Shown: piece after piece, positions 35,246 to 57,450 of the stretch | Numbering within the stretch: the first letter of the stretch is position 1 | How the letters are laid out: the number at the start of each line of letters is the position of its first letter | From: Rhodanobacteraceae bacterium | GTDB lineage: Bacteria; Pseudomonadota; Gammaproteobacteria; Xanthomonadales; Rhodanobacteraceae | Direction of reading: 5' to 3' | Assembly: GCA_009996615.1 (NCBI GenBank) | Contig: JAACZU010000007.1 | Coordinates: forward strand, 124,001-188,000 | DNA: 64,000 bases | Position numbers and translations under genes: made by a program | Notes under the pieces: model-generated | Seen by the model: only the letters and a program-made list of their open reading frames with translations | The model's database searches: none | Told to the model about the DNA's origin: nothing

Positions 35246-35458
35246 ATGGAAGCTCATGTCATGTCGGATCGCTGGTTGTCGGTCGAGCAGATCGCAGAGT
35301 ATCTCGGCGTCAGTAAGGACACCGTCTACGCATGGATCGGCAAGCGGAACATGCCGGCTCACCGTATCGGCCGGCTGTGGAAATTCAAGACCGAAGAAGT
35401 GGATGAATGGGTCCGTTCTGGAGGGGCTGCGGATGCCGAGAGTAAGGGCAAGGGATGA
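35246..35458 (+). CDS. Helix-turn-helix (excisionase/MerR-like) DNA-binding protein
   Basis: RWLSVEQIAEYLGVSKDTVYAWIGKRNMPAHRIGRLWKFKTEEVDEWVRSGG; alternative start 35261. Confidence 0.82.
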   Translation: MEAHVMSDRWLSVEQIAEYLGVSKDTVYAWIGKRNMPAHRIGRLWKFKTEEVDEWVRSGGAADAESKGKG

Positions 35459-37053: not shown

Positions 37054-40000
37054 ATGGCAGACCGCATGGAAACCTCGAACGATCAGAAGCACCAGTCCTA
37101 CCGCGCCCGCCCGGAACCCGGCCAATTGGTCGAGGTTCGCCGACGCCAGTGGGTTGTGGCGGATGTCGCCTCTTCGAAATTGGAATCGGCTTCGGCGTTG
37201 CAGAACTGCGTGACGCTTTCATCCATTGATGAGGATGGGCTCGATGATGAATTGGAGGTCATCTGGGAGATCGAGCCCGGCGCACAGGTCATTGAGCGTG
37301 CAGGCCTGCCATCCATCACGGGGCAGGACGACTCGGACACGCTCGAAGCTTTCCTCGATGCTGTTCGTTGGGGTGCTGCCACCAATGCCGACAGGGGGTT
37401 CCTGCAAGCGCCGTTCCGTAGCGGCGTCAGCATTGAGGACTTTCAGCTCGACCCTCTGGTGCGTGCCATCGACATGGCCCGTGTCAACCTGCTCATCGCC
37501 GACGATGTCGGTCTGGGCAAGACCATCGAGGCCGGGCTGGTCATCCAGGAGATGTTGCTCCGGCACCGTGCCCGTACCGTCCTGATCATCTGTCCTGCAT
37601 CCCTGCAGGAGAAGTGGCGCGTCGAGATGCTGGAGAAGTTCGGCCTCGACTTCCGCATCGTCGACACCACCTACATCAAGCAGTTGCGGCGCGAACGCGG
37701 CATCCACGCCAACCCGTGGACATCTCATCCGCGCCTGATCGCCTCAATGGACTGGGTCAAGAGTGGCGAGGGTTTGCGAGCCATGCGCGACGTGCTCCCG
37801 CCACACGCAGGTCATCCGCGAAAGTTCGATCTTCTAGTCGTCGACGAAGCACACAACATCGCCCCCGCTGCCGGTGTGCATTACGCGCTGGAGAGTCAGC
37901 GGACCCGCTTCATCCGTGCGATCAGCCCGCACTTCCAGCATCGCCTGTTCCTGACCGCAACGCCGCACAACGGCTACACCGAGTCGTTCACCTCGCTGCT
38001 GGAATTGCTCGACGACCAGCGTTTCGCCCGCAACATTCTCCCCGACGAGAGGCAGCTGAGCCAGGTGATGATCCGCCGCCTGAAGAGCGATCTGGTCGAT
38101 GCCGATGGCAAACCGCTGTATGCCCAGCGCAAGCTGCAGGCCCTGGCGGTCCCTTACACGGCCGAGGAACGGGATATCCACCAGAAGCTGAACGATTACT
38201 GCGCCAGTCGAGAGAAGGACGCTGAGAAAACCGGAAGCACGTTCGGCACCTCGTTCGTCAACCAGCTGCTCAAGAAGCGTCTGTTCTCATCGCCCGCCGC
38301 ATTCGCATCCACGCTCGAGAAGCACATCGCCTCGCTGTCGAATAGCGCCAAGTCAAAAACACATGACGCCATGGCCGAGCGCATCCTGCGCAAAGCCATC
38401 CTCAAAGTGGATGAGGATTACGCCGATGACCAGCAAGTCGAGAACGCCCAGTCGGAGGCCGTCGAGGAGGCATCGCGCCGATCCCAGCCGCTGACGCCTG
38501 ATCAGCAACGGATGCTGGCCGACTTGCGGCAATGGGCGCAGCGCGCCAAGAACCAGACCGACTCCAAGGCCAGGGCCATCCTCGACTGGCTCTCCGCCAA
38601 TCTCAAGCCGGGCGGCCAGTGGAACGATCGCCGGGTGATCTTATTCACCGAATACCGCACCACGCACCAGTGGATGCACGAGATCCTCGCCAGTCACGGC
38701 TTCGGCGGTGAACGTCTCGGCCTGCTACATGGTGGCCTCACCCAGGACGAGCGCGAACCCATCAAAGCCGCGTTCCAGGCCTCCCCCAAGGATTCCCCTG
38801 TCCGCATCCTGCTCGCGACCGATGCCGCCTCGGAGGGTATCGACCTGCAGAACCACTGCAATTGCCTCATCCATTTGGAGATTCCCTACAACCCGAACGT
38901 GATGGAGCAGCGTAACGGTCGTATCGACCGTCATGGTCAACGCGAGAAGGAAGTGCTGATCTGGCACCCCGTCGACGGTGGTGGGCAAGGCCATGCTGCT
39001 GTGGGTGGTCATGGTGAGGACATCCTGCGCGCACTGCGCAAGCTGGAGTCGATGCGCGCCGACATGGGCAGCGTCAATCCGGTCATCGCGCCGCAAATGT
39101 CCGGTCTCATCGAAGGCTCGCTGAAGGATCTGGACACTCGCCTCGCGGAGGCCAAGATCGCCAAGGCTCGGCGCTTCGTCCGCGCCGAACGTGAGCTGAA
39201 AGACCGCGTCGCCAAGCTCCACGAACGGCTTCTCTCCACTCAGCAGGATTTCCACCTCACCCCCGATCACATTCAGATGGCAGTGAAGACCGGCCTCGCG
39301 CTGGCTGGCCGCCCACCACTGGAACCCTTCGCCTTTTCGGATGCGCCCCAGGGCAGCGTATTCAGGATGCCAGCGCTCTCGGGATCGTGGGCACGGTGCC
39401 TGGAGGGACTGCGTCACCCACATACCCAGCAGATACGCCCCATCACCTTCGATCACGGGGTCGCAAAGGGTCGAGACGACGTCGTGCTGGTCCACCTGAA
39501 CCATCGCTTGGTGCAAATGTGCCTGCGTCTGTTGCGCGCCGAGGTCTGGGCGCAGGACGACGTGAAGAAACTGCATCGCGTCACCGTCCGCACCGTGCCG
39601 GATGCGCTCGTCGATGGCCCCGCCGTGGTCGTCGTCTCTCGGCTCGTCGTCACCGGCGGCAACCATCATCGGCTGCACGAGGAACTGACCTTGTCGGGCG
39701 GCTACCTGCGCGATCAGTCCTTCCGCCGCGAAGAAGGCGTCACCCGCGTCCAGCAGTGGCTGGACGAATCGAAACCGATCACGGCGGCCCCGTCCCTGTT
39801 CGACGCGCTGCGCGTCCGCTTCGACCGTCAGCAGGAAGCCATCCTGAAAGCGGTCGATGCCCGCTCCAAGGAACGTCTCCGCTATCTGACCAATACGCTC
39901 CAGACCCGCAAGCAGCAGGAAGTCGGTGACATCGGCACCGTGCTCGACGAATTGGAGAAGGCGATCCAGTCCGAGTTGAAGAAAGGCGGGCAGCCCGAAC

Positions 40001-40200
40001 AGCTCACGCTCTTCACCGAGGACGAACGCACGCAACTGCGGCGCGACATCGCCGCGCTTGAAGCACGCCTCGCGCGCATCCCCGACGAGCGCGAGATGGA
40101 AATGCAGGCCATCGAAGCACGCTACGCCAAGCTCGACGACCGCACCTTCCCGGTCGCCGTGATCTTCGTCGTGCCGGAATCTGCTGGAGGTGCTGCATGA
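37054..40200 (+). CDS. drmD: SNF2-family helicase, DISARM DrmD-like
   Basis: LLIADDVGLGKTIEAGLVIQEMLLRHR, LLVVDEAHNI, LTATPHNGYTESF, ATDAASEGIDLQNHCNCLIHLEIPYNPNVMEQRNGRIDRHGQ; upstream of the methylase in a class-1 DISARM arrangement. Confidence 0.88.
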   Translation: MADRMETSNDQKHQSYRARPEPGQLVEVRRRQWVVADVASSKLESASALQNCVTLSSIDEDGLDDELEVIWEIEPGAQVIERAGLPSITGQDDSDTLEAFLDAVRWGAATNADRGFLQAPFRSGVSIEDFQLDPLVRAIDMARVNLLIADDVGLGKTIEAGLVIQEMLLRHRARTVLIICPASLQEKWRVEMLEKFGLDFRIVDTTYIKQLRRERGIHANPWTSHPRLIASMDWVKSGEGLRAMRDVLPPHAGHPRKFDLLVVDEAHNIAPAAGVHYALESQRTRFIRAISPHFQHRLFLTATPHNGYTESFTSLLELLDDQRFARNILPDERQLSQVMIRRLKSDLVDADGKPLYAQRKLQALAVPYTAEERDIHQKLNDYCASREKDAEKTGSTFGTSFVNQLLKKRLFSSPAAFASTLEKHIASLSNSAKSKTHDAMAERILRKAILKVDEDYADDQQVENAQSEAVEEASRRSQPLTPDQQRMLADLRQWAQRAKNQTDSKARAILDWLSANLKPGGQWNDRRVILFTEYRTTHQWMHEILASHGFGGERLGLLHGGLTQDEREPIKAAFQASPKDSPVRILLATDAASEGIDLQNHCNCLIHLEIPYNPNVMEQRNGRIDRHGQREKEVLIWHPVDGGGQGHAAVGGHGEDILRALRKLESMRADMGSVNPVIAPQMSGLIEGSLKDLDTRLAEAKIAKARRFVRAERELKDRVAKLHERLLSTQQDFHLTPDHIQMAVKTGLALAGRPPLEPFAFSDAPQGSVFRMPALSGSWARCLEGLRHPHTQQIRPITFDHGVAKGRDDVVLVHLNHRLVQMCLRLLRAEVWAQDDVKKLHRVTVRTVPDALVDGPAVVVVSRLVVTGGNHHRLHEELTLSGGYLRDQSFRREEGVTRVQQWLDESKPITAAPSLFDALRVRFDRQQEAILKAVDARSKERLRYLTNTLQTRKQQEVGDIGTVLDELEKAIQSELKKGGQPEQLTLFTEDERTQLRRDIAALEARLARIPDEREMEMQAIEARYAKLDDRTFPVAVIFVVPESAGGAA

Positions 40201-43200
40201 GCATGCACCACGAATGGCTCGCGCTCATCGAAATTTCCGGCCCGTTCCTCGCCGTCCCTGTCCTGGAGGAAGCCTTCCCGCAGGGGCTGGAGGAACTCGA
40301 TGCGGGCAAGCGCAAGCGGCTGCGGCAGGCCTACGACGAATGGCATGAGGCGCAGGAAACCGACGATCCCCGGCTCGAAGACCTGTACACGGCGTGGATC
40401 GACGAAGTGCTGTCGCGCGGACTGGAACTCGACGAGGACGGTCGTGGCGACGTGCTCAAACACAAAGACTGGTGCGCCAATCACCTGATCGTCGCGCTGC
40501 CGGAACATGGCGTGAGCCTGTCGCCCGACTTCGCCGTCGTCGGCAATGGCGATGCGCCGCTGATGCTCGTCCAAGCCTACGCGCCGGACGTCGATCTCGA
40601 CGCCACCCGGAAACTCGACGGCTGGGCCAGCACACCGGCGGAACGCATGGTCACGCTCTGCCGCGCCACAGGCTGCCGTCTCGGTCTGGTCACCAACGGC
40701 GAACGCTGGATGCTGGTCGATGCGCCGGTGGGTGCGGTCACCACCTTCGCCAGTTGGTATGCACGCATCTGGTCGCAGGAACCTGTCACCCTGCAAGCCT
40801 TCGTCCACCTCTTGGGCATCCGGCGCTTCTTCGTGGACGAGTCCGAACGACTGCCTGCGCTGTTCGACCGTTCGCTGAAGTTCCAGGACGAAGTGACCGA
40901 TGCCCTGGGCGAACAAGTGCGGCGCGCGGTCGAAGTGCTGATCCAGTCGCTCGACAAGGCCGACCAAGACCGCGACCGCGAACTGCTGCGCGGCGTGAAG
41001 GAAGCCGAACTCTACGAAGCCGCACTGACGGTGATGATGCGGCTGGTCTTCCTGCTGTCCGCCGAGGAGCGCGGCCTGCTGCTCTTGGGCGACGAACGCT
41101 ACGAGGCGAACTACGCGCTCTCGACCCTGCGCATGCAGTTGCGTGCCGAATCGGATGAGATTCTGGAGCGCCGCTGGGATGCGTGGTCGCGCCTGCTGGC
41201 CGTCTTCCGCGCCGTGTATGGCGGCATCGAGCACGAGAACCTGCGCCTGCCCGCGCTGGGCGGTTCGCTGTTCGACCCGGATCGCTTCCCCTTCCTCGAA
41301 GGCCGAGCGAAAGGCTCCGACTGGCGCACCGACGTCGCCAAACCGCTGCCCATCGACAACCGCACCGTCCTGTTGTTGCTCGAAGCCATCCAGCAATTCC
41401 AAGGGCGCACGCTGTCCTACCGGGCGCTGGACGTGGAGCAGATCGGCTACGTCTATGAGGGTCTGCTGGAGCGCACCGTCAAGCGCACCGCCGAAGTCAC
41501 GCTGGAACTCGACGCCACCAAGAGCGCGCAGTCGCCGTGGGTCACGCTGGCCGAACTCGAATCCGCGCGGCTGGATGGTGCCGCGCGTTTGGCCGAACTG
41601 CTCCAGCAGCGTTCCGGCAGTTCCGCCAGCCGCGTGCGCAACGATCTGGCCCGCACCGTGGACGACGCGCTCGCCGACCGCTTGCTGACGGCCTGCCACG
41701 GCGACACGGCACTGCGCGACCGCATCAAACCCTTCGGCCATCTGGTGCGCACCGATCCGTGGGGCTATCCGTTGGTGTATCCCGCCGGAGCCTTCATCGT
41801 CACCACCGGCTCCGACCGGCGCGAGACCGGCACCCACTACACGCCGAAGTCGCTCACCGAGGCCATCGTCGCCGAGACGCTCACGCCCATCGCCTACGTC
41901 GGCCCCGCGCAGGGCACGCCGCGCACGGATTGGGTGCTGAAATCGCCCGCCGAACTGCTCGATCTGAAGATCTGCGACCCGGCGATGGGTTCGGGCGCGT
42001 TCCTCGTGCAAGCCTGCCGCTGGTTGGCCGACCGGTTGGTGGAAGCGTGGGCACAGGCCGAGGCTCAGGGGCACACGGTCGGCATCGACGGGCGTGTGGT
42101 AGCCGCCGATGCCAACATTGAGCCGCTGCCGCGTGACACCGAGGCACGCACCATCGTCGCCCGCCGCCTCATCGCCGAACGCTGCCTCTACGGCGTCGAT
42201 CTGAATCCGCTGGCGGTTGAGCTGGCTAAGCTCTCCATCTGGCTGGTGACGCTGGCCAAGGGCCGCCCCTTCGGCTTCCTCGACCACAACCTGCGCTGTG
42301 GTGACAGCCTGCTCGGCATCCACAGGCTGGATCAGCTCACTCAGCTTTCGATGAATCCCTCAGGCCAGGGCCAGCTACGCCTGTTCGGCCAGAACATCGA
42401 GCAGGCAGTGCACGAAGCCATCGAACTGCGACAACGGCTGCGCGAAATCCCCATACGTGACATCAGCGACGTGGAGGCGATGGCGCATCTGGACGGCGAC
42501 GCGCGCCGCAGGCTGGCAGTGCCGGAAGGCATTGCCGATGCATTCGTCGGCGAAGTTTTCGCATCGGGCGGAAGTGGCACGGCACTGGAGAATGCGCTGG
42601 TATCGCTGACCGTCCAAGCCGGGCAGGTCATCGACGGAGACCGCGACGTGCTCGCCTCGATGCGCCGGAGATCGATCGCTGCGCTCTCGACCGACCTGCC
42701 TATCGACAAGACTGCCCGTCGGCCTTTCCATTGGCCATTGGAGTTTCCCGAGGTGTTCTCGCGTGAACGCGGTGGCTTCGATGGCATGGTAGGTAACCCG
42801 CCATTCCTTGGAGGAAAACGCATTTCTGGTGTGGCAGGAGACGCCTTCCGAAACTGGCTCGTGACCCACCTTGCCGATGGGCGACGCGGCTCCGCAGACC
42901 TCGTCGCGTACTTTTTTTTACGAGCATGGAGCCTGCTGCGAGACGGCGGCAGCTTTGGACTTCTCGCAGTCAATACCATAGCTGAAGGCGATACAAGGCA
43001 GGTCGGCCTGGAAGCGATGGTGGGTGCGGGCGCTGTCATTCATGCGGCCTACCCGAACGAGCCTTGGCCCGGAAAGGCGGCGGTCGTCACCAGTCGTGTG
43101 CATGTTCACAAGGGCGAGTGGTCGGGCAAGCCTTTACTGCTCGGGAGACCGGTGCTCTTCATCTCGGCCTTCCTGTCTGATCGTGAGGAATGGAGTCCCA

Positions 43201-44558
43201 AGCAACTCAAAGCCAACGGGGGTAAGGCTTTCGTCGGCTCCTACGTACTTGGTATGGGGTTCGTGCTTACCTCTGACGAGGCACGGCGGATGTTGGATGC
43301 TGACCCAAGAAACGCCGAGGTGCTCTTTCCCTATATCAACGGGGACGACCTCAACTCAGATCCTGAGCAACAACCGAGTCGCTGGGTTGTCAATTTCTGG
43401 GACTGGTCGGAGGAGCGTGCACAAGAATACGAATTGCCGTGGCGGAGGATCGAAGAACGGGTTAAGCCGGAGCGTCAGCGCGTCAACGAACGTGGTGAGT
43501 TCGTCCTTAGACAGCCACTGCCTGTGCGTTGGTGGCAATACGCTGACAAGCGTCCCGCGTTGTATCACACCGTCGGTCGCGGTCAAAGTTTTGAGCGTCA
43601 CCCGAAGGAGTGGGATCTCCGCACGAAGCCAATGCCTCACGTATTGGTCGCGGTGCAAACGACGAAATACCTGTCTGTAAGCCGCCAACCAAATAGCGCG
43701 GTCTTCTCACACATGACGATAGTTTTTGCCGAAGCATCGCAAGCGTTATACGCATTGCTAAATTCTGTCGTGCATGGTGAATGGGTAAGGAAGCATTCCT
43801 CTTCGCTGGAAACGCGACTTCGGTATATCCCAACCGATTGTTTTGAGACGTTTCCACTGCCATTGCTTCAAGGTGATCTGGAATCTCTCGGGCACCGGCA
43901 CAACGATAGTCGTCAGCAAGCCATGCTTGATCTGGGTATCGGTATCACAAAACTCTACAACCGTTTCCACGCCGCTACCGAGCGTGATTCCCGCATCGAA
44001 GGGCTGCGCGCCCTGCAGCGCGAAATGGATAACGCCGTCGCGCGCGCCTACGGCTGGGACGACCTCGACCTCGAACACGGTTTTCACGAAGTGCCGTACC
44101 TGCCGGAGAACGACCGCGTCCGCTTCACCATCTCGGAATCTGCGCGCGTCGAAGTGCTGCGCCGCCTGTCGGAGTTGAATCGCCAGCGATACGAAGAAGA
44201 AGTCGCGCAAGGACTACACGACAACGCCACGCCACGCACCTCGGCACCCAAACGCCGTCGCACCAGCGCCGACGTTCCGCAACCCTCGCTCGACTTCGAC
44301 GCCCTTCCCGCCAACGAAGGCCAATACCTCAAAGTCGCCGAACCCCGCCCCGATTACCGCGCTGGCCCCACCCACGCCATCGTCGAACACCTGAAAGCCC
44401 ACCCCGGCTGGCACGCCAAGTCCGACATCCTCGCCGCCACCGGTATCACCGACGGCCAGTGGAACACCGCCATCAACGAGCTGCTCGCAAGCGGCAAAGT
44501 CGAACGCCAAGGCGAGCGGCGTGGTGCGCGCTATCGCGTTCTGGGGGATGAGTCATGA
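40197..44558 (+). CDS. drmMI: N6-adenine DNA methyltransferase (PglX/Eco57I-like), DISARM DrmMI-like
   Basis: ICDPAMGSGAFLVQACRWLADRLVEAW, YGVDLNPLAVELAKLSIWL, VGNPPFLGGKRI; ATGA overlap with drmD. Confidence 0.88.
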   Translation: MSMHHEWLALIEISGPFLAVPVLEEAFPQGLEELDAGKRKRLRQAYDEWHEAQETDDPRLEDLYTAWIDEVLSRGLELDEDGRGDVLKHKDWCANHLIVALPEHGVSLSPDFAVVGNGDAPLMLVQAYAPDVDLDATRKLDGWASTPAERMVTLCRATGCRLGLVTNGERWMLVDAPVGAVTTFASWYARIWSQEPVTLQAFVHLLGIRRFFVDESERLPALFDRSLKFQDEVTDALGEQVRRAVEVLIQSLDKADQDRDRELLRGVKEAELYEAALTVMMRLVFLLSAEERGLLLLGDERYEANYALSTLRMQLRAESDEILERRWDAWSRLLAVFRAVYGGIEHENLRLPALGGSLFDPDRFPFLEGRAKGSDWRTDVAKPLPIDNRTVLLLLEAIQQFQGRTLSYRALDVEQIGYVYEGLLERTVKRTAEVTLELDATKSAQSPWVTLAELESARLDGAARLAELLQQRSGSSASRVRNDLARTVDDALADRLLTACHGDTALRDRIKPFGHLVRTDPWGYPLVYPAGAFIVTTGSDRRETGTHYTPKSLTEAIVAETLTPIAYVGPAQGTPRTDWVLKSPAELLDLKICDPAMGSGAFLVQACRWLADRLVEAWAQAEAQGHTVGIDGRVVAADANIEPLPRDTEARTIVARRLIAERCLYGVDLNPLAVELAKLSIWLVTLAKGRPFGFLDHNLRCGDSLLGIHRLDQLTQLSMNPSGQGQLRLFGQNIEQAVHEAIELRQRLREIPIRDISDVEAMAHLDGDARRRLAVPEGIADAFVGEVFASGGSGTALENALVSLTVQAGQVIDGDRDVLASMRRRSIAALSTDLPIDKTARRPFHWPLEFPEVFSRERGGFDGMVGNPPFLGGKRISGVAGDAFRNWLVTHLADGRRGSADLVAYFFLRAWSLLRDGGSFGLLAVNTIAEGDTRQVGLEAMVGAGAVIHAAYPNEPWPGKAAVVTSRVHVHKGEWSGKPLLLGRPVLFISAFLSDREEWSPKQLKANGGKAFVGSYVLGMGFVLTSDEARRMLDADPRNAEVLFPYINGDDLNSDPEQQPSRWVVNFWDWSEERAQEYELPWRRIEERVKPERQRVNERGEFVLRQPLPVRWWQYADKRPALYHTVGRGQSFERHPKEWDLRTKPMPHVLVAVQTTKYLSVSRQPNSAVFSHMTIVFAEASQALYALLNSVVHGEWVRKHSSSLETRLRYIPTDCFETFPLPLLQGDLESLGHRHNDSRQQAMLDLGIGITKLYNRFHAATERDSRIEGLRALQREMDNAVARAYGWDDLDLEHGFHEVPYLPENDRVRFTISESARVEVLRRLSELNRQRYEEEVAQGLHDNATPRTSAPKRRRTSADVPQPSLDFDALPANEGQYLKVAEPRPDYRAGPTHAIVEHLKAHPGWHAKSDILAATGITDGQWNTAINELLASGKVERQGERRGARYRVLGDES

Positions 44559-46696
44559 CATCACTCTCTGCTGATCGCCCAAGCACTGACCCTAAGGAGG
44601 ATTTGTTCGGGCATGCGCCGTTTGCAAAGAGCTTGGCTGACAGCATCTGTCGCTATCCGGGCAACGACGGGTTGGTGCTGGCTCTTTACGGCCCGTGGGG
44701 TTCCGGGAAGTCCACGGTTCTTGGCTATGTAAATCACTACCTTGAGCAGCAACCTGAAGACAATCGGCCCGTCGTCGTTACGTTCAACCCTTGGTGGTTC
44801 TCAGGGCAAGAAAATCTCGCCAGAGCCTTCCTTGGCCAGCTTCAGGCTGTGCTCCCCACCAAGAACGAGAAATTCAAAAAACTGGGTGATCTGCTAGGTG
44901 ACTTTGCCGAAGGTGTGGGCGGTTTGATCGACCTGTCTGGCATGACGGGTGGTGCGGCTGGCAAGCTCGGGAAGCTCATCGGCATGGTGACCAAGCGCAA
45001 GCCGAAAGATGTGCCCGCGCTCAAATCCGAGATCAGCAAGATTCTGAAGGAAGCAAAGAAGCGTGTTTTGATCGTCATCGACGATATTGATCGCCTCACC
45101 CCAGACGAAACTCGACAGTTATTTACCGTCATCAAAGCGTTGGCAGATTTTCCAAACGTTGTTTATCTGTTGGCCTTCGATCGCGAAGTTGCCGCGCAAG
45201 CCATTGAGCAACAGAGTGGCATGCCAGGCGAGCGCTATCTGGAGAAGATCATCCAGGTGCCGTTCGAGTTGCCGCCGATTGATCGTGTGGCCTTACGGGC
45301 TGCGCTGTTCAAACGCCTCAATCAGGCGCTGGGAGACACGCCGGACGGCCTATTCAATCAGTCGTATTGGACGAATGTTTTCCACGACGGGATCGACCCA
45401 TTGATCCAAGTGCCGCGAGATGTCGTCCGTTTCACGAATACGCTGTCTGTCACCTACCCGGCAGTGTGCGGTGAAGTCAATCCTGTGGACTTCATTGCGC
45501 TTGAGGCGATCCGAGTTTTTCTGCCGCCTTTGTATGACTTGGTTCGTACGAATCAAGACCGATTCGCTGGTCATAGCCGTGATGGCGGATATCAAGAGGA
45601 TCGGAATGCCAAGCAGGCATTTCATCAGCAATGGGTGGCTGAGCTTCCAGAGCGGCTGCGGGATAGCACGCAGGCATTGCTGGAGCGAGTGTTCCCAAAG
45701 ATCGGGCAGATGGGGTATGGCGCAGACTGGCTGGCTGAGTGGCGTAGGGAACTGCGTGCCTGCCACCCGGACTTGTTCCCTGTTTACTTCCGTCTGGCCG
45801 TTCCACAGGGCGCCATTCTGCGAAGCGAAATGATGGCGTTGTTGGCACTAGCTGGCTCGGCCGCTGATTTTGGAGCCGCACTTGTTCGTGCCAAGACTGA
45901 ACGACGACCAGATGGTTTGTCGAAAGCACGCGCCTTGCTTGAGCGTCTGATGGATCACGTCGAGCAAGAAATCGCAGACGAACATATCCCGACAGTTATT
46001 CAGGCCCTATTCGATGTTGGTGACTTGCTGATTGATCCCGCAGATGAGCGGGGAATGTTCGATTTCGGCAATATTTCGCGGGCATCTCGCCCCGTTTATC
46101 ACCTTCTGAAGCGAGTGCCCGCCGATCAGCGAACCGATATTCTTGATGAGGCAATCAAGGCAGGCAACGCGCTCGCTGTTCAGTCATGGCTCCTGCAAGC
46201 AGTGGATGAGGAGATCACCAAGGCAACAGTTTCAGGTGAACGCACACAACTGACGGCTGATGAGGTTACGAGATTGAAAGCCACCTGGATATCCAGAGTG
46301 CGAATGCTTTCAGCAAACGCCGATTTTATGGATCACCCAGAATTGTCAAGACTGCTTTCCATGTGGCGACACTGGGGTGATGGGGCGGAGACGCGTGCGT
46401 GGTGCGACCGCGTTACCGCGTCCGACGATGGGCTACTGGCGTTGCTGCCGAAATTCGTTCAGTACACCAGATCCCACACCTTGGGGGATTGGGCAATGCG
46501 CCTTCAACCGCGCCTAAATCCGAATTGGCTAGAAAACTATATCGATACCGCATGCTGTGCAGAGCGATTGAATGAGCTGTCAAGGAAGAACGCGATTCCC
46601 GATGCGGCCCAAGAGGCTGTCACCCAGTTTCTGAGGGAATTCGAGATGCTGAAGGTTGGAAAGAACCCGGATGGTGATGGTGCATTCGATGAATGA
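44555..46696 (+). CDS. KAP family P-loop NTPase
   Basis: LVLALYGPWGSGKSTVLGYVNHYLE, VTFNPWWFSGQENLARAFLGQL, KRVLIVIDDIDRLTPDETRQLF; ATGA overlap with preceding gene. Confidence 0.88.
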   Translation: MTSLSADRPSTDPKEDLFGHAPFAKSLADSICRYPGNDGLVLALYGPWGSGKSTVLGYVNHYLEQQPEDNRPVVVTFNPWWFSGQENLARAFLGQLQAVLPTKNEKFKKLGDLLGDFAEGVGGLIDLSGMTGGAAGKLGKLIGMVTKRKPKDVPALKSEISKILKEAKKRVLIVIDDIDRLTPDETRQLFTVIKALADFPNVVYLLAFDREVAAQAIEQQSGMPGERYLEKIIQVPFELPPIDRVALRAALFKRLNQALGDTPDGLFNQSYWTNVFHDGIDPLIQVPRDVVRFTNTLSVTYPAVCGEVNPVDFIALEAIRVFLPPLYDLVRTNQDRFAGHSRDGGYQEDRNAKQAFHQQWVAELPERLRDSTQALLERVFPKIGQMGYGADWLAEWRRELRACHPDLFPVYFRLAVPQGAILRSEMMALLALAGSAADFGAALVRAKTERRPDGLSKARALLERLMDHVEQEIADEHIPTVIQALFDVGDLLIDPADERGMFDFGNISRASRPVYHLLKRVPADQRTDILDEAIKAGNALAVQSWLLQAVDEEITKATVSGERTQLTADEVTRLKATWISRVRMLSANADFMDHPELSRLLSMWRHWGDGAETRAWCDRVTASDDGLLALLPKFVQYTRSHTLGDWAMRLQPRLNPNWLENYIDTACCAERLNELSRKNAIPDAAQEAVTQFLREFEMLKVGKNPDGDGAFDE

Positions 46697-46706
46697 AGGT
46701 GACTCC

Positions 46707-48683
46707 ATGATCAACAAAGAAGAAGGTGAGGTCACGCCGCCGTTCGAGATGACCGTCGATCTCAACGTCCTCGAACACCTCGGCATCAACCTCTATAGCA
46801 ACATCGCCGCTGTCCTTACCGAAGCGGTGGCCAACGCATGGGACGCGGATGCGTCCAGCGTGCAGATTCGCGTCGATCCGAACAACGAATGGATCGAGAT
46901 CGAGGACGACGGTATCGGCATGTCTGTCGATGACCTGAATGGCAAGTACCTGCGCGTTGGCTATCGCCGCCGCGACGAGGATGCGGAGCATGGTTGCAAG
47001 ACGGCCAAAGGCCGCCCTGTCATGGGCCGCAAGGGCTTGGGCAAGCTGTCGCTGTTCTCCATAGCCGATGTCATCGAAGTGCAGTCCGCCAAAGACGGCG
47101 GCAAGCACGGCTTCCGCATGACGGTGTCGGACATCAAGAAGGCCGTCCAAGACAAACAGAAATATCACCCCAAGCCACTGGCGGACGATGCGCTCACGGT
47201 GACGCAAGGCACGAAGCTGGTGCTGCGTGAAATCAAGCGGCAGCGTCTTGGCAAGGGCGTGGCCGCGCTGCGCAAGCGTTTGGCTCGGCGCTTCTCGATC
47301 ATTGGTCAGGCCAACGGCTTCGAGATCAAGATCGACGGCCTGCCCATATCGGCGACGGATCGCGGCGACCTGCCCAAAGTCCAGTTCCTCTGGACGTTCG
47401 AGGGCTACGAGCCGGAGGCCAGCACCATCGCGCACGTCGTGGAACGCGAATCGCTGCCCGCGCGGTTAGAGGCATGGGAAACGGCGTGGCGCGTGAGCGG
47501 CTGGCTCGGCACCGCGCGCAAACCCAAAGACCTCGACGACGACGAGGCAGGCAATCTGAACGGCATCGTGGTTTTCGCCCGTGGCCGCTTGTTCCATGAA
47601 AACGTCCTTGATCGCCTGAACGACGGGCGGCTCTACACCAAGTACCTCACCGGGCAGATCGAGGCGGACTTCCTCGATGCCGACGATCAGCCGGACATTG
47701 CCACCAGTGATCGCCAGCGCGTGCAGGAAGACGACCCGCGATACATCCAGTTGATTGCCTTTCTCGGCTCGCAACTCAACAAGCTCGAAAAACGCTGGAA
47801 CGAATGGCGCAGGAAGCACGAGGTCGAGAAGGCCAAGGAAACGTCTCCAGCCCTTGCGGAATGGTTGGACACGCTGCGTGAAGGCCACAGGAAGAACGCG
47901 GAAACGCTGATCGCCAAACTCAGCGCGCTGCCGGTGGACGATGAGGAGGATCGGAAGACCCTCTACAAGCACGGCATCCTCGCCTTTGAGCGCATGAAGC
48001 TGCGCGGCTCCACGGACGAGTTCGTGAGTGGCGTAGAAAGCGCCGACAAGTTGCTGGCTGTGCTCGCCGACCGCGATGCGCTGGAAGATTCCCTCTATCG
48101 AGACATCGTGCGATCACGGCTTGATGCCATCCGCTCGTTTCAAAAACTCATCGATGACGATGAGAAAGAAAAGGTGCTCCAGAAGTACCTGTTCGATCAT
48201 CTTTGGCTGCTCGATCCGTCGTGGGAGCGGGCGACTGGAACCGAAGTCATGGAAACGCGCCTGCTGGAATCAGGCATCGTTGTCGAGGATTTGACCAAGA
48301 AGGAAGAACTCGGCCGCGTGGACATCAAGTACCGCACGACGGCGGGCAAGCACATCGTGGTCGAGCTGAAGAAGGTTCAGCGTGCGATGAAGCTCCTCGA
48401 ACTTCAGGAGCAGGGCCAGACCTACGTGGACAAGCTCAAGAAGATTCTGCTTGCGCAGAACGAGCCGACACCGAACATCGAGGTCATATTCGTGATCGGG
48501 AAGCCAGTCGCTGAGGAAGCGACGAATCCAGACCGCCTCAAGTCGTCAATGGCTGCCGTGTCGCCGGGCAGTCGCATCGTCCACTACGACACGCTGATCC
48601 GTGGCGCGCAGGAAGCCTATTCGGCCTACATCGACAAGAGCAAGGAACTCGACAAGCTCGAAAACATAGTGAATAGGATTTGA
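46707..48683 (+). CDS. GHKL/HSP90-like (MORC-like) ATPase with C-terminal PD-(D/E)XK-like region
   Basis: LTEAVANAWDADASSVQIRVDPNNEWIEIEDDGIGMSVDDL, GRKGLGKLSLFSIAD; C-terminus GRVDIKYRTTAGKHIVVELKKVQRA; AAGGTGA 5 nt before ATG 46707. Confidence 0.82.
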   Translation: MINKEEGEVTPPFEMTVDLNVLEHLGINLYSNIAAVLTEAVANAWDADASSVQIRVDPNNEWIEIEDDGIGMSVDDLNGKYLRVGYRRRDEDAEHGCKTAKGRPVMGRKGLGKLSLFSIADVIEVQSAKDGGKHGFRMTVSDIKKAVQDKQKYHPKPLADDALTVTQGTKLVLREIKRQRLGKGVAALRKRLARRFSIIGQANGFEIKIDGLPISATDRGDLPKVQFLWTFEGYEPEASTIAHVVERESLPARLEAWETAWRVSGWLGTARKPKDLDDDEAGNLNGIVVFARGRLFHENVLDRLNDGRLYTKYLTGQIEADFLDADDQPDIATSDRQRVQEDDPRYIQLIAFLGSQLNKLEKRWNEWRRKHEVEKAKETSPALAEWLDTLREGHRKNAETLIAKLSALPVDDEEDRKTLYKHGILAFERMKLRGSTDEFVSGVESADKLLAVLADRDALEDSLYRDIVRSRLDAIRSFQKLIDDDEKEKVLQKYLFDHLWLLDPSWERATGTEVMETRLLESGIVVEDLTKKEELGRVDIKYRTTAGKHIVVELKKVQRAMKLLELQEQGQTYVDKLKKILLAQNEPTPNIEVIFVIGKPVAEEATNPDRLKSSMAAVSPGSRIVHYDTLIRGAQEAYSAYIDKSKELDKLENIVNRI

Positions 48684-48693
48684 GGGGGAGCAC

Positions 48694-51600
48694 ATGACAT
48701 GGAGTCCTGGACAGCTCGTCCGTCATATTGATGATCCGGCCAAGATCGGCACCGTCACCGATCAGACGCGCGCGCGTGCATCCGGCTCGCAATACCGCGT
48801 GAACTGGAATGGACGTCTGGATTGGCACTACGAGGAGGAGTTGGTCGCGGCCGATGCGGGTAGCGATGATCCTCTGGAGCTGATCCGAGAGGGACGTTAC
48901 GGGCGGGTGGATGACCTGCGCCAATTGCTGACGCACATCCATCTGGCCGGGCGGCTGTCGAACGTCGTCTATGCGATGGGTCTGACCCAGACCGACTTCT
49001 ACCCGCATCAATACAAGCCCTTGCTCACGCTGCTGGACTCGCCCGTCAATGGCCTGCTGATCGCTGACGAAGTGGGTCTGGGCAAGACGATCGAGGCGGG
49101 ACTGATCTGGACTGAACTGCGTGCCCGCTACGATATGCGCCGCCTATTGGTGGTGTGCCCCGCTATGCTGCGGGAGAAGTGGCGGTTGGAGCTTTCGTCT
49201 CGCTTCGGTCTCGATGCCCGTGTCGTCGATGCGGAAACGTTGCGGCAAGAACTGGCTTCGACCGAGCATCGGGAACGCGCGTGGATCGTCAGCTACCAGG
49301 GCATCCGCGTTCCGAGCGATTGGGACGCCAACGAGAGCGACAAGCCCAAGCGATCGGTTCGCGCCCGGCTCGCCGACTTGCTCTACCAGCACGCCGATCA
49401 AGAACCACTGCTGGACTTGGTGATCTTCGATGAAGCGCACTACATGCGCAACGAAGAAACGGGCGCATGGCGGACGGGCAGCTTGCTGAGGGATGTCAGC
49501 ACACACCAGTTAATGCTTTCGGCGACGCCGATCAATCTCGGTTCGGATGACTTGTTCAATGTATTGCGCCTGCTCGACCCAGATCATTTCGAGTATCCGG
49601 AGGACTTCCGAAATGTCGTCCTCGCCAATCGTCCGGTGATCGCCGCGAGCGACGTCGTGCGTGATCCGACGAGCGATGCCGACCAGATCATGGTGGCGAT
49701 ACGCGAAATCGAGTCGTCACGATGGTTCGAGCGATCCGAGCGCGTCGATCGCTTGATCGAGGAAGCGGAGGCGATTGAGGACTGGACGAACGACAGGCGT
49801 ATCGACATCGCCGCGAAACTCGAACGGCTCAACTTGCTCGCGCACATCGTCAGCCGCACGCGCAAACGGGAAGTGCAGTCCGACCGCGTGTTGCGTGACG
49901 TCACGGTGTTCGAGGCGGAAATGTCGCCCGTGGAGCGGGAGCTTTATCAGGCGATCACCGAAGGGACACGGGAGTATGCGCTGGCCAATGGCATCGAGCA
50001 CGGTTTCCTGCTCTCCACGCCGCAGCGCATGGTTGCGTCCAGTCCGGCCGCCTTGCTGCGGACGTGGCGCGACGACGGCCTCGACGCCGACGCCCTTGCG
50101 GCGGCAATGGACGAAATCGACGAAGATGAGGAAAAGCTGGCCGAACGGACATCTGGCCTCAAACAGTGGCTGGCGAGCAGAACACTGCCCCAGTTCGGGT
50201 TCGGCGACCTGAGCAGGAACGACTCGAAATTCGCCGAGCTTTCCAAGGCGTTCAAGCGATTCATGACCGAGGATCGAGACGCCAAGGCCATCGTGTTCAC
50301 CACCTTTCGCGGCACGGCGCGCTATCTCGTCGAGCGGCTTTCCGCCGAAAACGTGGAGGCCGGGTTGCTGATGGGCGGGGCGGAGTTCGACAAAGAGGCC
50401 GTGGTCTCCGGTTTCCGCGAGGACAGGAACTGCCGCGTGTTGGTCTGCACGGACGTGGCCGCCGAAGGCGTGGACTTGCAGTTCTGCCGCCTCGTCGTCA
50501 ACTACGATCTGCCGTGGAACCCGATGCGCATCGAGCAGCGGATCGGTCGTATCGATCGCATCGGTCAACAATCCAAGCGCATCTTGGTGTGGAACTTCGT
50601 CCACAAGGACACGATCGATGCACTCATCATTGCGAGGCTGGCCAAGCGCATCGGTGTTTTCGAAAGCACATTGGGGGAAACGGAGGAAATCCTCGGTCAA
50701 GTGCGCAAGCTCGAAGACGTCTTGTTGTCGAAGCATCTGACCACCGACGAAGAGGCGCGCCTGATCGAGGAAGTGGCGCTGGCGATCGAGAATGCCAAGC
50801 GCAAACAGGAAGAGCTTGAGCGAGAGGCAATCCAACTCGTTGCACACGGTCAGCAACTGCTGGCGCAGATCGAAGCCGCGCGCGGCGATGGAAAGATCGT
50901 CACCCGGCACGATCTGATTCGTTACGTCGATGGGTGCCTCAGAAACGTTCCCGGTTGTCGGATCAATGCTGCGCACGGTGATGCCGACACGTTCGACATC
51001 GGCTTGAGCCCGGGCTTTGCTGCGGAACTGGACGAGTTCGTGAGGCGGGAGAATCTGGTCGGGAAGACGGGTCTTGCCTCCGGCCAGACGAGGCGTTGCC
51101 GCTTCACCGACAGGATCACCGACAAGCCGAAACCCGGCGAGGAGATCGTCCATCGCTTCCATCCGATCGTTCGCTTCCTGTCGAGCAATGCCGACGGGTC
51201 GGCGGATCGCTTTCCGCTCTACGCCGCCAGAGTCGCCGCCGAAGGCATTGAGGCGGGCCGATATGCGCTGATGACTCGGCTGGCGAGCTTTTCCGGCGTG
51301 AAGGAAGAAGAACACCTCTTGGTCGCTGCCGTCCCTCTCGACGGTGAGCGATCCCTCGACGACCGGGTGGCGGAAGCTTTGCTCGACTCGGTTAGGAAGT
51401 CGGGGAACGACTGGCCGACGGTAGCGGTGGATGTCCTTGCGGATGCCGGGGTAGCCGCAGCGGAGCGGAGCGAGGAAATGCTCAGGGATCGGTACAAGGC
51501 GATCAAGGATGAGAAATGGCGCGAGAACAAAGACCGCGCCGACGTGCTTTCCCAACTTTTGGATGACCACATCCGAAAGAAACGCGAGGGGTTCGAGAAG

Positions 51601-51825
51601 CGGATCAGCAATCACGAATACTCTGCATCGTTGTATGGAAGTAGCCCGGATGGCAAGCGGCGCAAGGGCTTGGCGAATGCCGAACGCAAGAAAATGGAGG
51701 ATTTTCTGGCCCGGATGGAGACCCGTCGGGCGACGCTGGAGCGCAAAAGTCAGGCCTTTTCGGCCGAGACGCGCGACATCTGCGTCTTGCTCGTGGACGT
51801 GGTGCGGGCGGGAGGTCGTCCATGA
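48694..51825 (+). CDS. SNF2/RapA-type DEAH helicase (second SNF2 helicase of the locus)
   Basis: LLIADEVGLGKTIEAGLIWTELRARYDMRRLLVVCPAMLREKW, LVIFDEAHYMRNEETG, CTDVAAEGVDLQFCRLVVNYDLPWNPMRIEQRIGRIDRIGQ. Confidence 0.9.
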   Translation: MTWSPGQLVRHIDDPAKIGTVTDQTRARASGSQYRVNWNGRLDWHYEEELVAADAGSDDPLELIREGRYGRVDDLRQLLTHIHLAGRLSNVVYAMGLTQTDFYPHQYKPLLTLLDSPVNGLLIADEVGLGKTIEAGLIWTELRARYDMRRLLVVCPAMLREKWRLELSSRFGLDARVVDAETLRQELASTEHRERAWIVSYQGIRVPSDWDANESDKPKRSVRARLADLLYQHADQEPLLDLVIFDEAHYMRNEETGAWRTGSLLRDVSTHQLMLSATPINLGSDDLFNVLRLLDPDHFEYPEDFRNVVLANRPVIAASDVVRDPTSDADQIMVAIREIESSRWFERSERVDRLIEEAEAIEDWTNDRRIDIAAKLERLNLLAHIVSRTRKREVQSDRVLRDVTVFEAEMSPVERELYQAITEGTREYALANGIEHGFLLSTPQRMVASSPAALLRTWRDDGLDADALAAAMDEIDEDEEKLAERTSGLKQWLASRTLPQFGFGDLSRNDSKFAELSKAFKRFMTEDRDAKAIVFTTFRGTARYLVERLSAENVEAGLLMGGAEFDKEAVVSGFREDRNCRVLVCTDVAAEGVDLQFCRLVVNYDLPWNPMRIEQRIGRIDRIGQQSKRILVWNFVHKDTIDALIIARLAKRIGVFESTLGETEEILGQVRKLEDVLLSKHLTTDEEARLIEEVALAIENAKRKQEELEREAIQLVAHGQQLLAQIEAARGDGKIVTRHDLIRYVDGCLRNVPGCRINAAHGDADTFDIGLSPGFAAELDEFVRRENLVGKTGLASGQTRRCRFTDRITDKPKPGEEIVHRFHPIVRFLSSNADGSADRFPLYAARVAAEGIEAGRYALMTRLASFSGVKEEEHLLVAAVPLDGERSLDDRVAEALLDSVRKSGNDWPTVAVDVLADAGVAAAERSEEMLRDRYKAIKDEKWRENKDRADVLSQLLDDHIRKKREGFEKRISNHEYSASLYGSSPDGKRRKGLANAERKKMEDFLARMETRRATLERKSQAFSAETRDICVLLVDVVRAGGRP

Positions 51826-53456
51826 AGAGCTGGAAAGATCAACTGCGGGATCTCAAGAACGCACTGCGTGGGCCGGGACGCGGCAAGGAACAGGAACGAG
51901 GTGATGCGCCGCCCAAGATCGACTTCGACCCACCACCAGCGTGGCTGGCTGGTGGTCAGCCGACTCCGAAGAAGCCGCCTGCACGGAATCCCGTTCCGAA
52001 ACCTGCCGCTCCGGTCGCCGCAGTCGTGGCGCTCGCCACCAAGCCGCCGCGACCCCCAGCGGTTCCAACACCACCGCCATTCAAACCCCGCATCGACGAC
52101 GGATGTGTGCTGAACATGCCGGCGTGGAGCGATGTCGGCAGATTGTTGCAGCATCCCGAACATCGAGGTGAACGCTCGGCACCGATGGCTGTCAGAGTCG
52201 GGGTGGATTTCGGGACCGCTTTCACGAAAGTGGCGATTCGCGCAGGTGTCGATCTGGTACCGGTCGAATGGTCTGCCGTCACGGGAGACGATTCGGAAAC
52301 GGGGCGCTACGTGGTTCCCGGTTTCGTCGTTCGTGCGCCAGATGGCGAATTCTGCTGGCGGCGTCTCACCGAAGCTGATATTCGAGGGAACCTCAAGCTC
52401 CCGGTCATTGAGATGGCCGGGACGTATGAATGCCCGATAGCCACCGTGGCATATCTGGCGTTGGTCATCCGCTACGCGAGGGCGTTCTTGTACCGGAACG
52501 CGGAAATTGGACGCAAACTCGTGGGGCGTTCGCTGCGCTGGGAGCTGAACATCGGCTGCCCCACCGAACCACACGAGAACCCGAAGGTCGTCGATGTATT
52601 CCGGCGCATCGCCCGAACTGCGTGGCTATTGGCGGCGGAAGATCGGCTCGCAGAGCAAGACGTCTTGGCTGCATGGTCTTTGGCCGATTCTGCAATAGAC
52701 CTCGAAGCAGAACCGGGTGTCGTGCCGGAGTTCGTCGCCCAAATCGCGGGATATCTGGGGTCGCCGCAGGTAAAGGAAGGTCTGCACGCGCTGATCGACG
52801 TCGGTGCGGCCACCCTCGACGTGGCGACGTTCAACGTCGTCTTGCGAAATGATCGGGCATCTCCGCCACGCATACCCATCTTCTTTTCTGCGGTTCGTCC
52901 CCTTGGAACACACTATCTACGTCACAACCGTCATTCCAGACTCGGCCTCGATCTTTCGTGGAACGATGCAGCACCCGTCGAATCGTCCGATGACTTCGGA
53001 CAACGAAATGGAAAGCCTTTGGACGCGGTCGTGGCAGTCGATGAGGAATTCGTGGGACAAGTCGTCCGCTGCATCGTCGGCGTCATCGATGGAACCCGCA
53101 CCAACGCACGGGGAGACCCGCGAAGTGCGGCTTGGCGAGAGGGCTTGCCGATATTCGTCACCGGCGGTGGAGCGAATTGCATCTTGTATCGCCAAGCCAT
53201 CGGGGTGGTGCAACGGGAAGTGAGTTTGAGCGTGGGGCGGCGGCCGGATTCTTCGACGCATTTCCGACTCATCGAATTGAACCCAACTTCCGGCAATGCA
53301 CGACAAATCGAGGCGGGCGACAGGCTGACCGTGGCGCTCGGGCTGACGGAGGATGCCGAAAACATCGCTCGCGTCGTCCCACACCGGGACATCGAGCCGA
53401 TCACATATGGCATGCCGGAACGTGTCGATCACACGGATCTGTATGGAGACCGATGA
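51822..53456 (+). CDS. Hsp70/actin-like ATPase-fold protein with Pro-rich N-terminal linker
   Basis: Phosphate-1-like VRVGVDFGTAFTKVAIRAG, phosphate-2-like LIDVGAATLDVATFNVV; PTPKKPPARNPVPKPAAPVAAVV linker; ATGA overlap upstream. Confidence 0.75.
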   Translation: MKSWKDQLRDLKNALRGPGRGKEQERGDAPPKIDFDPPPAWLAGGQPTPKKPPARNPVPKPAAPVAAVVALATKPPRPPAVPTPPPFKPRIDDGCVLNMPAWSDVGRLLQHPEHRGERSAPMAVRVGVDFGTAFTKVAIRAGVDLVPVEWSAVTGDDSETGRYVVPGFVVRAPDGEFCWRRLTEADIRGNLKLPVIEMAGTYECPIATVAYLALVIRYARAFLYRNAEIGRKLVGRSLRWELNIGCPTEPHENPKVVDVFRRIARTAWLLAAEDRLAEQDVLAAWSLADSAIDLEAEPGVVPEFVAQIAGYLGSPQVKEGLHALIDVGAATLDVATFNVVLRNDRASPPRIPIFFSAVRPLGTHYLRHNRHSRLGLDLSWNDAAPVESSDDFGQRNGKPLDAVVAVDEEFVGQVVRCIVGVIDGTRTNARGDPRSAAWREGLPIFVTGGGANCILYRQAIGVVQREVSLSVGRRPDSSTHFRLIELNPTSGNARQIEAGDRLTVALGLTEDAENIARVVPHRDIEPITYGMPERVDHTDLYGDR

Positions 53457-56400
53457 TGAAAAATGATTCGAATACAGGCACGGCCTTCGTTTCCAACGCA
53501 TGGATCGCCGTCGATCACGGTCTCGGCACCGATCGCAGGCTCGCGCCCTATACGTTGGTCTTGAAGGGTGATCGTTCCCTGTATCAAGCCATCGCCGAGG
53601 ACGATTGGGTGCTCGTGCTGAACCCTGCCGGAGAGATCGTGCGTGCCGGGCGCGTGTTGCGGCTCCGCTCCGACCTTGAAACCACCACGATCTTTTTCGA
53701 CCGACTGTCCGTCGCCGATACGCCAGTGCCGGTCGCCAGTGTTTCGTTGGCTCCGCCGTCGTCGGGCAACGTCGGGCGCATCCAGTGGGACGAGTTCGTC
53801 GCGGCCCTGTCTTCGGCGCTGCATCAGACCGTGGGTGGCGTGCCGCCGGTCGAGGATCGGGCCTACATCCGCGAGCTGCTGCAACTGGCCGTGGTAGATG
53901 ATCTACTCGGCCCGGCGGGTGGTCCGCACGAACGCATCGTGGACATGAGCGTGCGAGACCGCTATCTGGTCGGCAAACTGGCACCGCGTGAAGATGCCCA
54001 GGGCGGCATCGAAGGACTGGAAGGCCCGTTGGCAGAGGAGGATGTGGAGGAGCCCACCGACCCCATCGTGCCCGGCCAGCACGAACCCGGTGCCGAGTTC
54101 GGCACGGCCACGGGGCGGGTGGAACCGGAATCGGATTCCTCCGACGAGATCGACGCCGCCAGTAATCAATCGCTGGTGCCCAGCAGCTTCGGCATGACCT
54201 TCTGCGTGGATGGCGATGCCGAGCGCATTGAGGTCGAGGCGCGTTGGGGCAGTTACGAGCGCGTGCCCAACGAAGAACACGAGCTGATGCGGCCCAATGG
54301 ACAGAAGGCCAAGGTCTGGCAGCGCATTCCCTGCGGCGGGAAGCTGGTGCTGCCGCTCGCTGAGGGTGTGATTCCCCATCAGGCACCGGACGCGAACCGT
54401 CCAGCAGTGCGGATTCAAGGCTCCATCCGCGGCAAGAACGCCAACGGCGACCGCTTGGTGACGCTGTTCTTGATCAACACGCAGGAAGAACCCGACACCA
54501 ACCGCGACACGGCATGGTTGTTCCAGCCGGAACTGATCGTGCGCGCGGAAGCAGAAGCATCCAAGCGCGCCATCTTCCGCCGCCGCCCGGTTCTGGACGT
54601 CGACGGGAACGACCCGGAGCGTGAATCGCTGGAGATGATCTACCGCAACCGCGTGGAGTTCGCGGTCGGGCACGGCGTCGCCATTCATGCCGAGACGGCG
54701 GACGACGTGACGCTGGCGACAGAGGTGCGCAGCACCGTGATGCCTCAATACGAAGTGCAGGTCACGGAGACACCGGGCCTCGACCCTGCCGACCGTCCGG
54801 CAATGAAGGAGATGGTGGCGAGCGGCCTGCTCGACATGCAGCGGCTCGCCACGTTGGGCGTGGACGAGTTGATCGACGCCCTGAACGTGCTGACGAAGGA
54901 CTACGCAGCTTGGATCGCCGAGCAACGCGGGCGCATCGGCAATGACGTGATCGGATACGACACGTCGGCGGTACAGGCGTTGGAGCAGTGTCAGGAAATC
55001 CAATCGCGCTTGCAGCAGGGCATCGACACGCTGAAGAATGACGGCAAGGCGCTGGCTGCTTTCCGTTTTGCCAACAAAGCGATGGCTATCCAGCGCGTGC
55101 GCAGCCTGTATGCGCTGGAAGTGCGGCGCGGGCGCGACGTGACGGTCGATCAATTCGACCTGCCGAAGAATCGGAGCTGGCGTCCTTTCCAGTTGGCGTT
55201 CCTGTTGCTGTCGATCCCGTCACTGGCCGATCCCACGCACCCGGATCGCGTGCAGCCGATGGAAGCCCATGCCGATCTGCTGTGGTTCCCCACCGGCGGT
55301 GGCAAGACCGAAGCCTACCTGGGCGTGGCGGCGTTCACGATGGCGATCCGCCGTCTGCAAGGCAAGCTCGGCGGCTACGACGGTTCGCGCGGTCTGGCCG
55401 TGATCATGCGCTACACCTTGCGCCTGCTGACCTTGCAGCAATTCCAGCGCGCCACCGCGCTGATCTGCGCGATGGAAAAGCTTCGGCGAGATGCTCTCGT
55501 GCAAGGTGATGAGTCGCTCGGCAAGGAGCCTTTCACCATCGGACTGTGGGTGGGCAACAAGGTGACGCCGGGCACGACCGAGGAAAGTCACTACGCCATT
55601 CAAGCTCTGCGTGATTCGGGAAAGAACAAAGCAGGACGTACTTCACCACTTCAGCTCACCAGTTGTCCTTGGTGTGGCTCTGCGATTGATCCTGGGAAAG
55701 ATGTCGTTGTCGATAAGGATCGTGGCCGAACAGTGGTTTACTGCGGAGACAAAAAGAGCAGTTGCACGTTCTCTCGCGGCAGGTCGAGCAGTTCGCCGTA
55801 TCCGGGCATTCCGGTGCTGACGGTGGACGAGGAGATCTACCACCGCCCGCCGACGATGATGATCGCCACCGTGGACAAGTTCGCCATGATGGCTTGGCGT
55901 GGTCAGGTGCGCACGTTGTTCGGTCGTGTGAATCAGGAATGCGAGCGCCACGGCCTGCTGTGGCCTGATTGCGATTGCACAGGCAATCACACCGCGTCGA
56001 AGAGTTCGCCAGCGGTCAAGGTCAAGAACGTTGCGCCGATCCGCCCGCCCGACCTGATCATCCAAGACGAGTTCCACCTCATCAGCGGTCCGCTGGGCAC
56101 GATGGTCGGCCTGTACGAGTCCGCCGTCGACGAACTGTCCGGCTGGACGCTTGATGGCAAGACGGTCAAGCCCAAGATCGTCGCGTCCACGGCGACAGTG
56201 CGCAAGGCCAAGGAACAGGTGAACAACGTGTTCATGCGGCGCGTTTCGGTGTTCCCGCCGCACGGCTTGGACGTGGAGGACAACTACTTCTCGGTGCAGC
56301 GCCCGATCGAAGAGCGGCCCGGCCGGCGCTATCTCGGCGTGTGCTCGCCCGGCAGCTCGCGGCCCGCGATGCTGATCCGTGTCTATACCGCCTTCCTCAC

Positions 56401-57448: not shown

Positions 57449-57450
57449 CC

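Follow-up and report, generated by a model that had tools for sequence, protein, structure and literature searches.

A BbrUII/HgiDII-family restriction enzyme inside a class 1 DISARM operon, probably one half of a split restriction-modification system

Introduction

In DISARM, DrmC is dispensable, and the destruction of DNA has been assigned to no further nuclease (PMC9142583). The window analysed here, a stretch of 64,000 nucleotides from a Rhodanobacteraceae bacterium, bears on this point: its DISARM operon holds an intact restriction endonuclease together with an m5C methyltransferase (C5-MTase) of the cognate type, and thus a concrete, deletable candidate for the DISARM effector. The kind of protein is known; what is new is the arrangement, in which the enzyme and its matching MTase are split and woven into the DISARM operon. 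Here we ask what this enzyme, hereafter the focal protein, is, to which partner it belongs and what it may do in such a place.

Domain Architecture and Family of the Focal Protein

The focal ORF is genuine, running from an ATG at 46707 to a stop at 48683 and encoding 658 amino acids, with a further in-frame ATG at 46689 as a possible upstream start. Its Pfam match is HATPase_c_3 (9e-18), and the key GHKL residues E39, N43, D67, G69, G71, G107, G110, G112 and T169 are conserved among homologues, both of which bear out the N-terminal GHKL motifs reported in an earlier note on this DNA. Searched against the PDB as a single sequence, the protein returned Hsp90-type GHKL matches only. AlphaFold modelled the whole chain with a pLDDT of 81 from a 40-row alignment made up of the window protein, two genome loci and viral contigs, and Foldseek on this model gave Hsp90 and MORC2 as top matches, the front half resembling Hsp90/TRAP1 and MORC2 structures. 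The description as MORC-like in the same note holds in a loose sense but not in the strict one, for the MORC motif GhXhhpXXRhl of the S5 domain is absent from the focal protein and present in 1 of the 40 alignment rows; a MORC protein proper was ruled out by this missing motif.

Since the full-length model matched Hsp90 and MORC2 first, the nuclease domain was modelled separately. Residues 462-658 gave an alpha-beta-beta-beta-alpha-beta core (pLDDT 84, pTM 0.80), whose best PDB matches in Foldseek were DNA-bound SduA of E. coli Shedu (9.3e-4), EndoMS/NucS and the Bacillus cereus Shedu nuclease. E488, R537, D539, E553, K555 and Y573 are invariant in the 40-homologue alignment, and two haloarchaeal members carry D instead of E553, as the name PD-(D/E)XK permits; Q569 and Y573 we take to be reminiscent of the Q-x3-Y motif of RecB-like nucleases. 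A Pfam search of the C-terminus of the focal protein gave no match. The Pfam profile SduA_C (DUF4263) matches 25 of the 40 homologue domains (best 1e-5) with the window's own domain left unmatched, and the PADLOC match of the focal protein to SduA is weak (1e-3). A C-terminal PD-(D/E)XK nuclease, as the earlier note had proposed, is therefore upheld by the invariant E488, D539, E553 and K555 and by the predicted fold, a structural comparison of the kind suggested there having returned a nuclease fold with SduA first. The VD-x12-ELK peptide from which that proposal started is indeed present (RVDIKYRTTAGKHIVVELKK, 48315-48374), one base away from where it had been placed and with a spacing from D539 to E553 of 13 residues, not 12. 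As a D-x(10-16)-[DE]xK pattern is found in 72% of shuffled C-termini, this spacing was dropped as stand-alone evidence, and the nuclease call is made because of conservation and fold. It is fair to regard the focal protein as a predicted ATP-gated nuclease.

NCBIfam NF050001 (BbrUII/HgiDII restriction enzyme) matches the focal protein with 866 bits (cut-off 550) over profile positions 1-659 of 659, and PADLOC labels it REase_II. By sequence it is a member of the BbrUII/HgiDII type II restriction enzyme family, in which the fusion of GHKL and nuclease is already known. The novelty implied when the two halves were called apparently fused does not survive this result: a new domain fusion was rejected on the full-length match to an established family, whose architecture is that of paraMORC3, defined by a GHKL and an S5 domain followed by a C-terminal restriction-endonuclease fold with E-D-ExK (Iyer, Abhiman and Aravind, 2008, PMC2292703). 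Such a C-terminal fold with E-D-ExK is found in the focal protein.

The DISARM Operon and its Setting

An operon-like run on the + strand (35525-60070) leads from the C5-MTase through Vsr, DrmD, DrmMI, a KAP NTPase, the focal enzyme, a second SNF2 helicase and an ASKHA-like protein to DrmA, DrmB and DrmC (Table 1). Neighbouring genes overlap or lie at most about 25 bases apart, which fits one predicted transcript. DrmD, DrmMI, DrmA, DrmB and DrmC were all found in this one operon above family cut-offs or with full PADLOC matches, which identifies it as class 1 DISARM; the association with DISARM that had been noticed before thus stands, with the correction that the focal gene lies inside the operon, not beside it. 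The start of DrmA was taken as the first in-frame ATG past 53438. A helix-turn-helix gene is annotated in Microvirga at the place before the MTase that corresponds to the small ORF of the window.

Table 1. Features of the window, in order of position
Feature	Coordinates	Strand	Evidence
Small helix-turn-helix (excisionase-like) ORF before the MTase, predicted function	35261-35458	+	ORF reading
C5-cytosine DNA methyltransferase, M.HgiDII-like, predicted cognate of focal enzyme	35525-36568	+	PF00145 4e-57
Vsr very-short-patch repair endonuclease	36590-37045	+	PF03852 1.7e-15
DrmD, SNF2-like DISARM helicase	37054-40200	+	NF038317 1430 bits, cut-off 610
DrmMI, adenine-type (Eco57I/MmeI-like) methyltransferase, class 1 DISARM	40197-44558	+	PADLOC DrmMI 2015 bits; Pfam Eco57I
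KAP P-loop NTPase (PADLOC PifA-like), variable cargo	44555-46696	+	PF07693 7e-59; PADLOC PifA 384 bits
Focal protein, HgiDII/BbrUII-family (paraMORC3) restriction enzyme: GHKL, transducer, helical linker, PD-(D/E)XK	46707-48683	+	NF050001, AlphaFold, Foldseek
GHKL ATP-binding region of focal protein (residues 33-155)	46803-47171	+	PF13589 9.3e-18
PD-(D/E)XK nuclease domain of focal protein (residues 488-658)	48168-48683	+	Conservation, AlphaFold, Foldseek
Catalytic residues of the nuclease domain	D539 48321-48323, E553 48363-48365, K555 48369-48371	+	Alignment
Second SNF2 helicase (DrmD paralogue)	48694-51825	+	NF038317 694 bits; PADLOC PDLC02623 2104 bits; synteny
544-aa protein, ASKHA-type (actin/Hsp70) phosphate motifs by eye	51822-53456	+	Travels with second helicase
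DrmA helicase (class 1)	53453-57448	+	NF038325 1495 bits, cut-off 950
DrmB (DUF1998)	57412-59307	+	NF038324 769 bits
DrmC, PLD-type nuclease	59309-60070	+	NF038319 253 bits, cut-off 133

The 544-aa ASKHA-like protein has no family match in Pfam, PADLOC or NCBIfam, and together with the second SNF2 helicase (window 48694-53456) it forms a pair that recurs in four DISARM loci (the window, G370, G580 and G732), enzyme present or not. Another variable slot lies between drmD and drmMI, where relatives carry a Mrr-like nuclease (L054:7758-8396, G370) or a Schlafen-group-3 helicase (L064:11291-13312, G390). Around the DISARM block, conjugation genes of an integrative conjugative element (ICE) are read from the other strand, TraD at 60842-63001 and TIGR03746 and TIGR03749 at 31995-33679, from which it follows that the whole DISARM cassette is probably cargo of such an element.

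The C5-MTase as Presumed Partner

The earlier reader had drawn no connection between the focal gene and the C5-MTase and Vsr that open the operon, with which the focal enzyme would form a split restriction-modification (RM) system. An orphan restriction enzyme without MTase was rejected once PF00145 had placed a C5-MTase at the operon head. With the MTases that immediately adjoin HgiDII-family enzymes in other genomes, this MTase shares 54-58% identity, and it is for this reason likely, as judged from sequence, to be the cognate partner of the focal enzyme 10 kb away; the other C5-MTase encoded in the genome shares no more than 39%, along a portion of the protein. An alignment-based scan of viral contigs recovered relatives of the enzyme (a scan with the single focal sequence found none). 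Of the 57 relatives whose identity is roughly 33% or above, 56 have a C5-MTase belonging to this family nearby. The remaining one, L079, is a DISARM locus in its own right with the order DrmMI-KAP-enzyme-DrmA, and its MTase, 98% identical to that of the window, lies about 10 kb upstream in the same record. In the P2-like E. coli phage PhiR44_1 (L078), a related enzyme annotated as ParaMORC3 adjoins a Dcm gene.

The target recognition region (TRD) of the MTase is conserved across the family. M.HgiDII, to which HVO_C0040 is homologous, has GTCGAC as its site (PMC5867850), and the C5-MTase of the Serratia DISARM recognises YMTCGAKR (PMC9142583). By analogy, the target of the RM system is probably a GTCGAC-like site with a TCGA core, GTCGAC being carried over from homologues. 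The palindromic hexamers most avoided in the window by z-score are CTCGAG (1 seen, 31 expected; 0.03) and GTCGAC (16 seen, 46 expected; 0.35), with a milder depletion in 400 kb of the chromosome (0.62 and 0.84 of expected, respectively). Site avoidance was set aside as evidence, since unrelated palindromes are depleted too and the enzyme-free G580 locus behaves likewise.

Phylogeny and Selection

MTases at the head of DISARM operons form one clade (8 rows, SH-aLRT 99) among the MTases of free-standing enzymes, the placement of G732 being unsettled. The DISARM-embedded enzymes likewise form one clade (100), joined to the nearest free-standing RM system, though not with strong support. As both trees were midpoint-rooted, the direction of transfer is one that we infer. 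Our analysis hints at an HgiDII-type RM system as the source of the C5-MTase and Vsr with which proteobacterial class 1 DISARM begins; if this origin is true, DISARM and a classical RM system would have one self-mark in common. Pairwise dN/dS among five DISARM-embedded copies of the enzyme is about 0.04-0.15 over the whole gene and up to 0.20 in the nuclease domain, values low enough to indicate purifying selection, so that the focal enzyme looks functional from its sequence.

The Slot between drmMI and drmA

A focal-type enzyme lies between DrmMI and DrmA in six loci with a head MTase (the window, G369, G370, G390, G826 and G765). The same slot holds a GHKL-TIR protein in G664 (L159:896-2776) and G827 (L167), and on a Microvirga terrae plasmid (L060:17510-19924) a third type of GHKL ATPase accompanied by a Methyltransf_35 gene. 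In four loci (G580, G732, G1200 and G249) the head MTase is present but a GHKL protein is not, which implies that the MTase has a use in DISARM even where the enzyme is missing. The slot of G580 and G732 is filled by the second helicase and ASKHA-like gene, that of G1200 by nothing, and that of G249 (L203/L204), in which drmMI is split by an insertion, by a 1062-aa reverse-transcriptase-like ORF, named by eye. Among loci without the head MTase (Oscillatoria, Rhodococcus, Nocardia, Nocardioides, Planktothrix, G107, G1133, G1220 and G1077), the slot is without a GHKL protein. The focal enzyme is no part of the class 1 DISARM core, being missing from many class 1 loci.

TIR was not found by Pfam in the G664 and G046 proteins; the assignment comes from PADLOC and a PDB match to SpbK for G664, and from PADLOC only for G046. 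Both GHKL types also occur free-standing with a C5-MTase and Vsr (G685, G630 and G646), the TIR form in G646 (L168). On a plasmid of Deinococcus AJ005 (L061:24596-28305), a plain DISARM is followed by a separate, complete Vsr/C5-MTase/HgiDII-type unit, an independent placing of the two systems together.

A Plausible Scenario and its Alternatives

The focal protein is, in our judgment, probably an ATP-dependent type II restriction enzyme that makes up, with the head C5-MTase and Vsr, a complete RM system which has been split and interleaved with class 1 DISARM. The C5-MTase would put its m5C mark on host sites with a TCGA core (in characterised relatives, GTCGAC), and Vsr would mend deamination of this mark. 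On binding ATP the GHKL domains may dimerise and clamp DNA, and the dimer would then allow the Shedu-like PD-(D/E)XK domains to cleave sites that lack methylation. DrmAB could read the same missing methylation as the restriction enzyme; class 1 DrmA has a predicted EVE-like domain for modified bases (PMC12458937), which would suit an m5C mark common to DISARM and RM. Cleavage, sequence specificity, ATP clamping and the common mark are all steps that we infer. Against this reading stand the gap of about 10 kb between enzyme and MTase, which are adjacent in free-standing systems, the four DISARM loci in which the head MTase occurs and a GHKL protein does not, and the Serratia DISARM motif, into which the GTCGAC taken from homologues does not fit.

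The constancy of the drmMI-drmA slot in six loci, within one operon of overlapping or near-touching genes, has led us to weigh a dedicated DISARM effector, in which DrmAB (with DrmD) would detect incoming DNA that is unmethylated and pass it to the GHKL protein, which would cut non-specifically or, in its TIR form, kill via NAD depletion, sequence-specific restriction having been lost. The GHKL-TIR proteins and the Microvirga ATPase in the same slot fit such a role, as do the dispensability of DrmC and a DISARM nuclease that has been called a mystery (PMC9142583). A GHKL protein is moreover present in 9/13 loci with the head MTase vs 0/10 without (p=0.0016, relatedness uncorrected), but the association weakens to 3/7 vs 0/10 (p=0.05, relatedness likewise uncorrected) when only loci found through DrmA alone are counted and enzyme-found ones are left out, and the loci are phylogenetically non-independent. 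We regard this reading as rather unlikely, for the enzyme tracks the MTase rather than DISARM, nearly all its relatives being members of free-standing RM pairs, and GHKL-TIR too is found free-standing beside C5-MTase and Vsr (G646). An effector socket between drmMI and drmA in class 1 DISARM with HgiDII-type C5-MTase and Vsr, taking GHKL ATPases with exchangeable PD-(D/E)XK or TIR domains, triggered by DrmAB and making the enzyme DISARM's missing nuclease and not an independent RM system, we hold to be unlikely.

The likeness of the C-terminal domain to SduA_C, in 25 of the 40 homologues and in the Foldseek result, and the phage protection given by the GHKL-DUF4263 protein VcSduA (PMC12137116) would also agree with a stand-alone Shedu-like nuclease that targets ends or structures of phage DNA and only happens to be housed in the operon, with an unrelated MTase. 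The strict co-occurrence with one C5-MTase family and the full-length fit to a restriction enzyme family, set against the weak SduA match of the window's own domain in PADLOC and the missing one in Pfam, make this very improbable. Least credible of all is a decaying passenger, an inactive restriction enzyme hitch-hiking in the ICE: some DISARM relatives do without the enzyme, but the ORF is intact, the catalytic residues are all kept, and dN/dS is low in every domain of the five DISARM-embedded copies.

Comparison with Known Systems

The proposed split RM system has a close counterpart in the BbrUII/HgiDII family (HgiDII of Herpetosiphon, BbrUII of Bifidobacterium breve), with which the focal protein shares full-length homology, the GHKL N-terminus, the nuclease motif and the family of the partner C5-MTase. 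Elsewhere enzyme and MTase are adjacent, whereas in the window vsr, drmD, drmMI and the KAP gene stand between them. To paraMORC3 the likeness extends from GHKL, S5-type domain and restriction-endonuclease fold to the neighbourhood, which contains C5-MTase, Vsr and SF2 helicases (PMC2292703); that paper has no DISARM setting, DISARM having been defined later. The paraMORC4-type proteins (Iyer et al., 2008) that G664 and G827 hold in this DISARM slot have a related GHKL module (28-32% identity), with an SpbK-like TIR domain replacing the nuclease.

Compared by architecture, the focal protein resembles VcSduA of the Vibrio cholerae Shedu system in joining a GHKL ATPase to a PD-(D/E)XK domain, Shedu-type in VcSduA and Shedu-like by predicted fold in the focal protein. 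What sets the focal protein apart is its full-length membership of the HgiDII family and an MTase of the cognate type. The Serratia DISARM C5-MTase, compared by its motif, has a related TCGA core in a motif that excludes GTCGAC. Class 1 DISARM itself is represented in the window by all five of its genes, drmD, drmMI, drmA, drmB and drmC, to which the operon adds the restriction enzyme, the KAP NTPase, the second SNF2 helicase and the ASKHA-like gene, with the C5-MTase and Vsr at its head.
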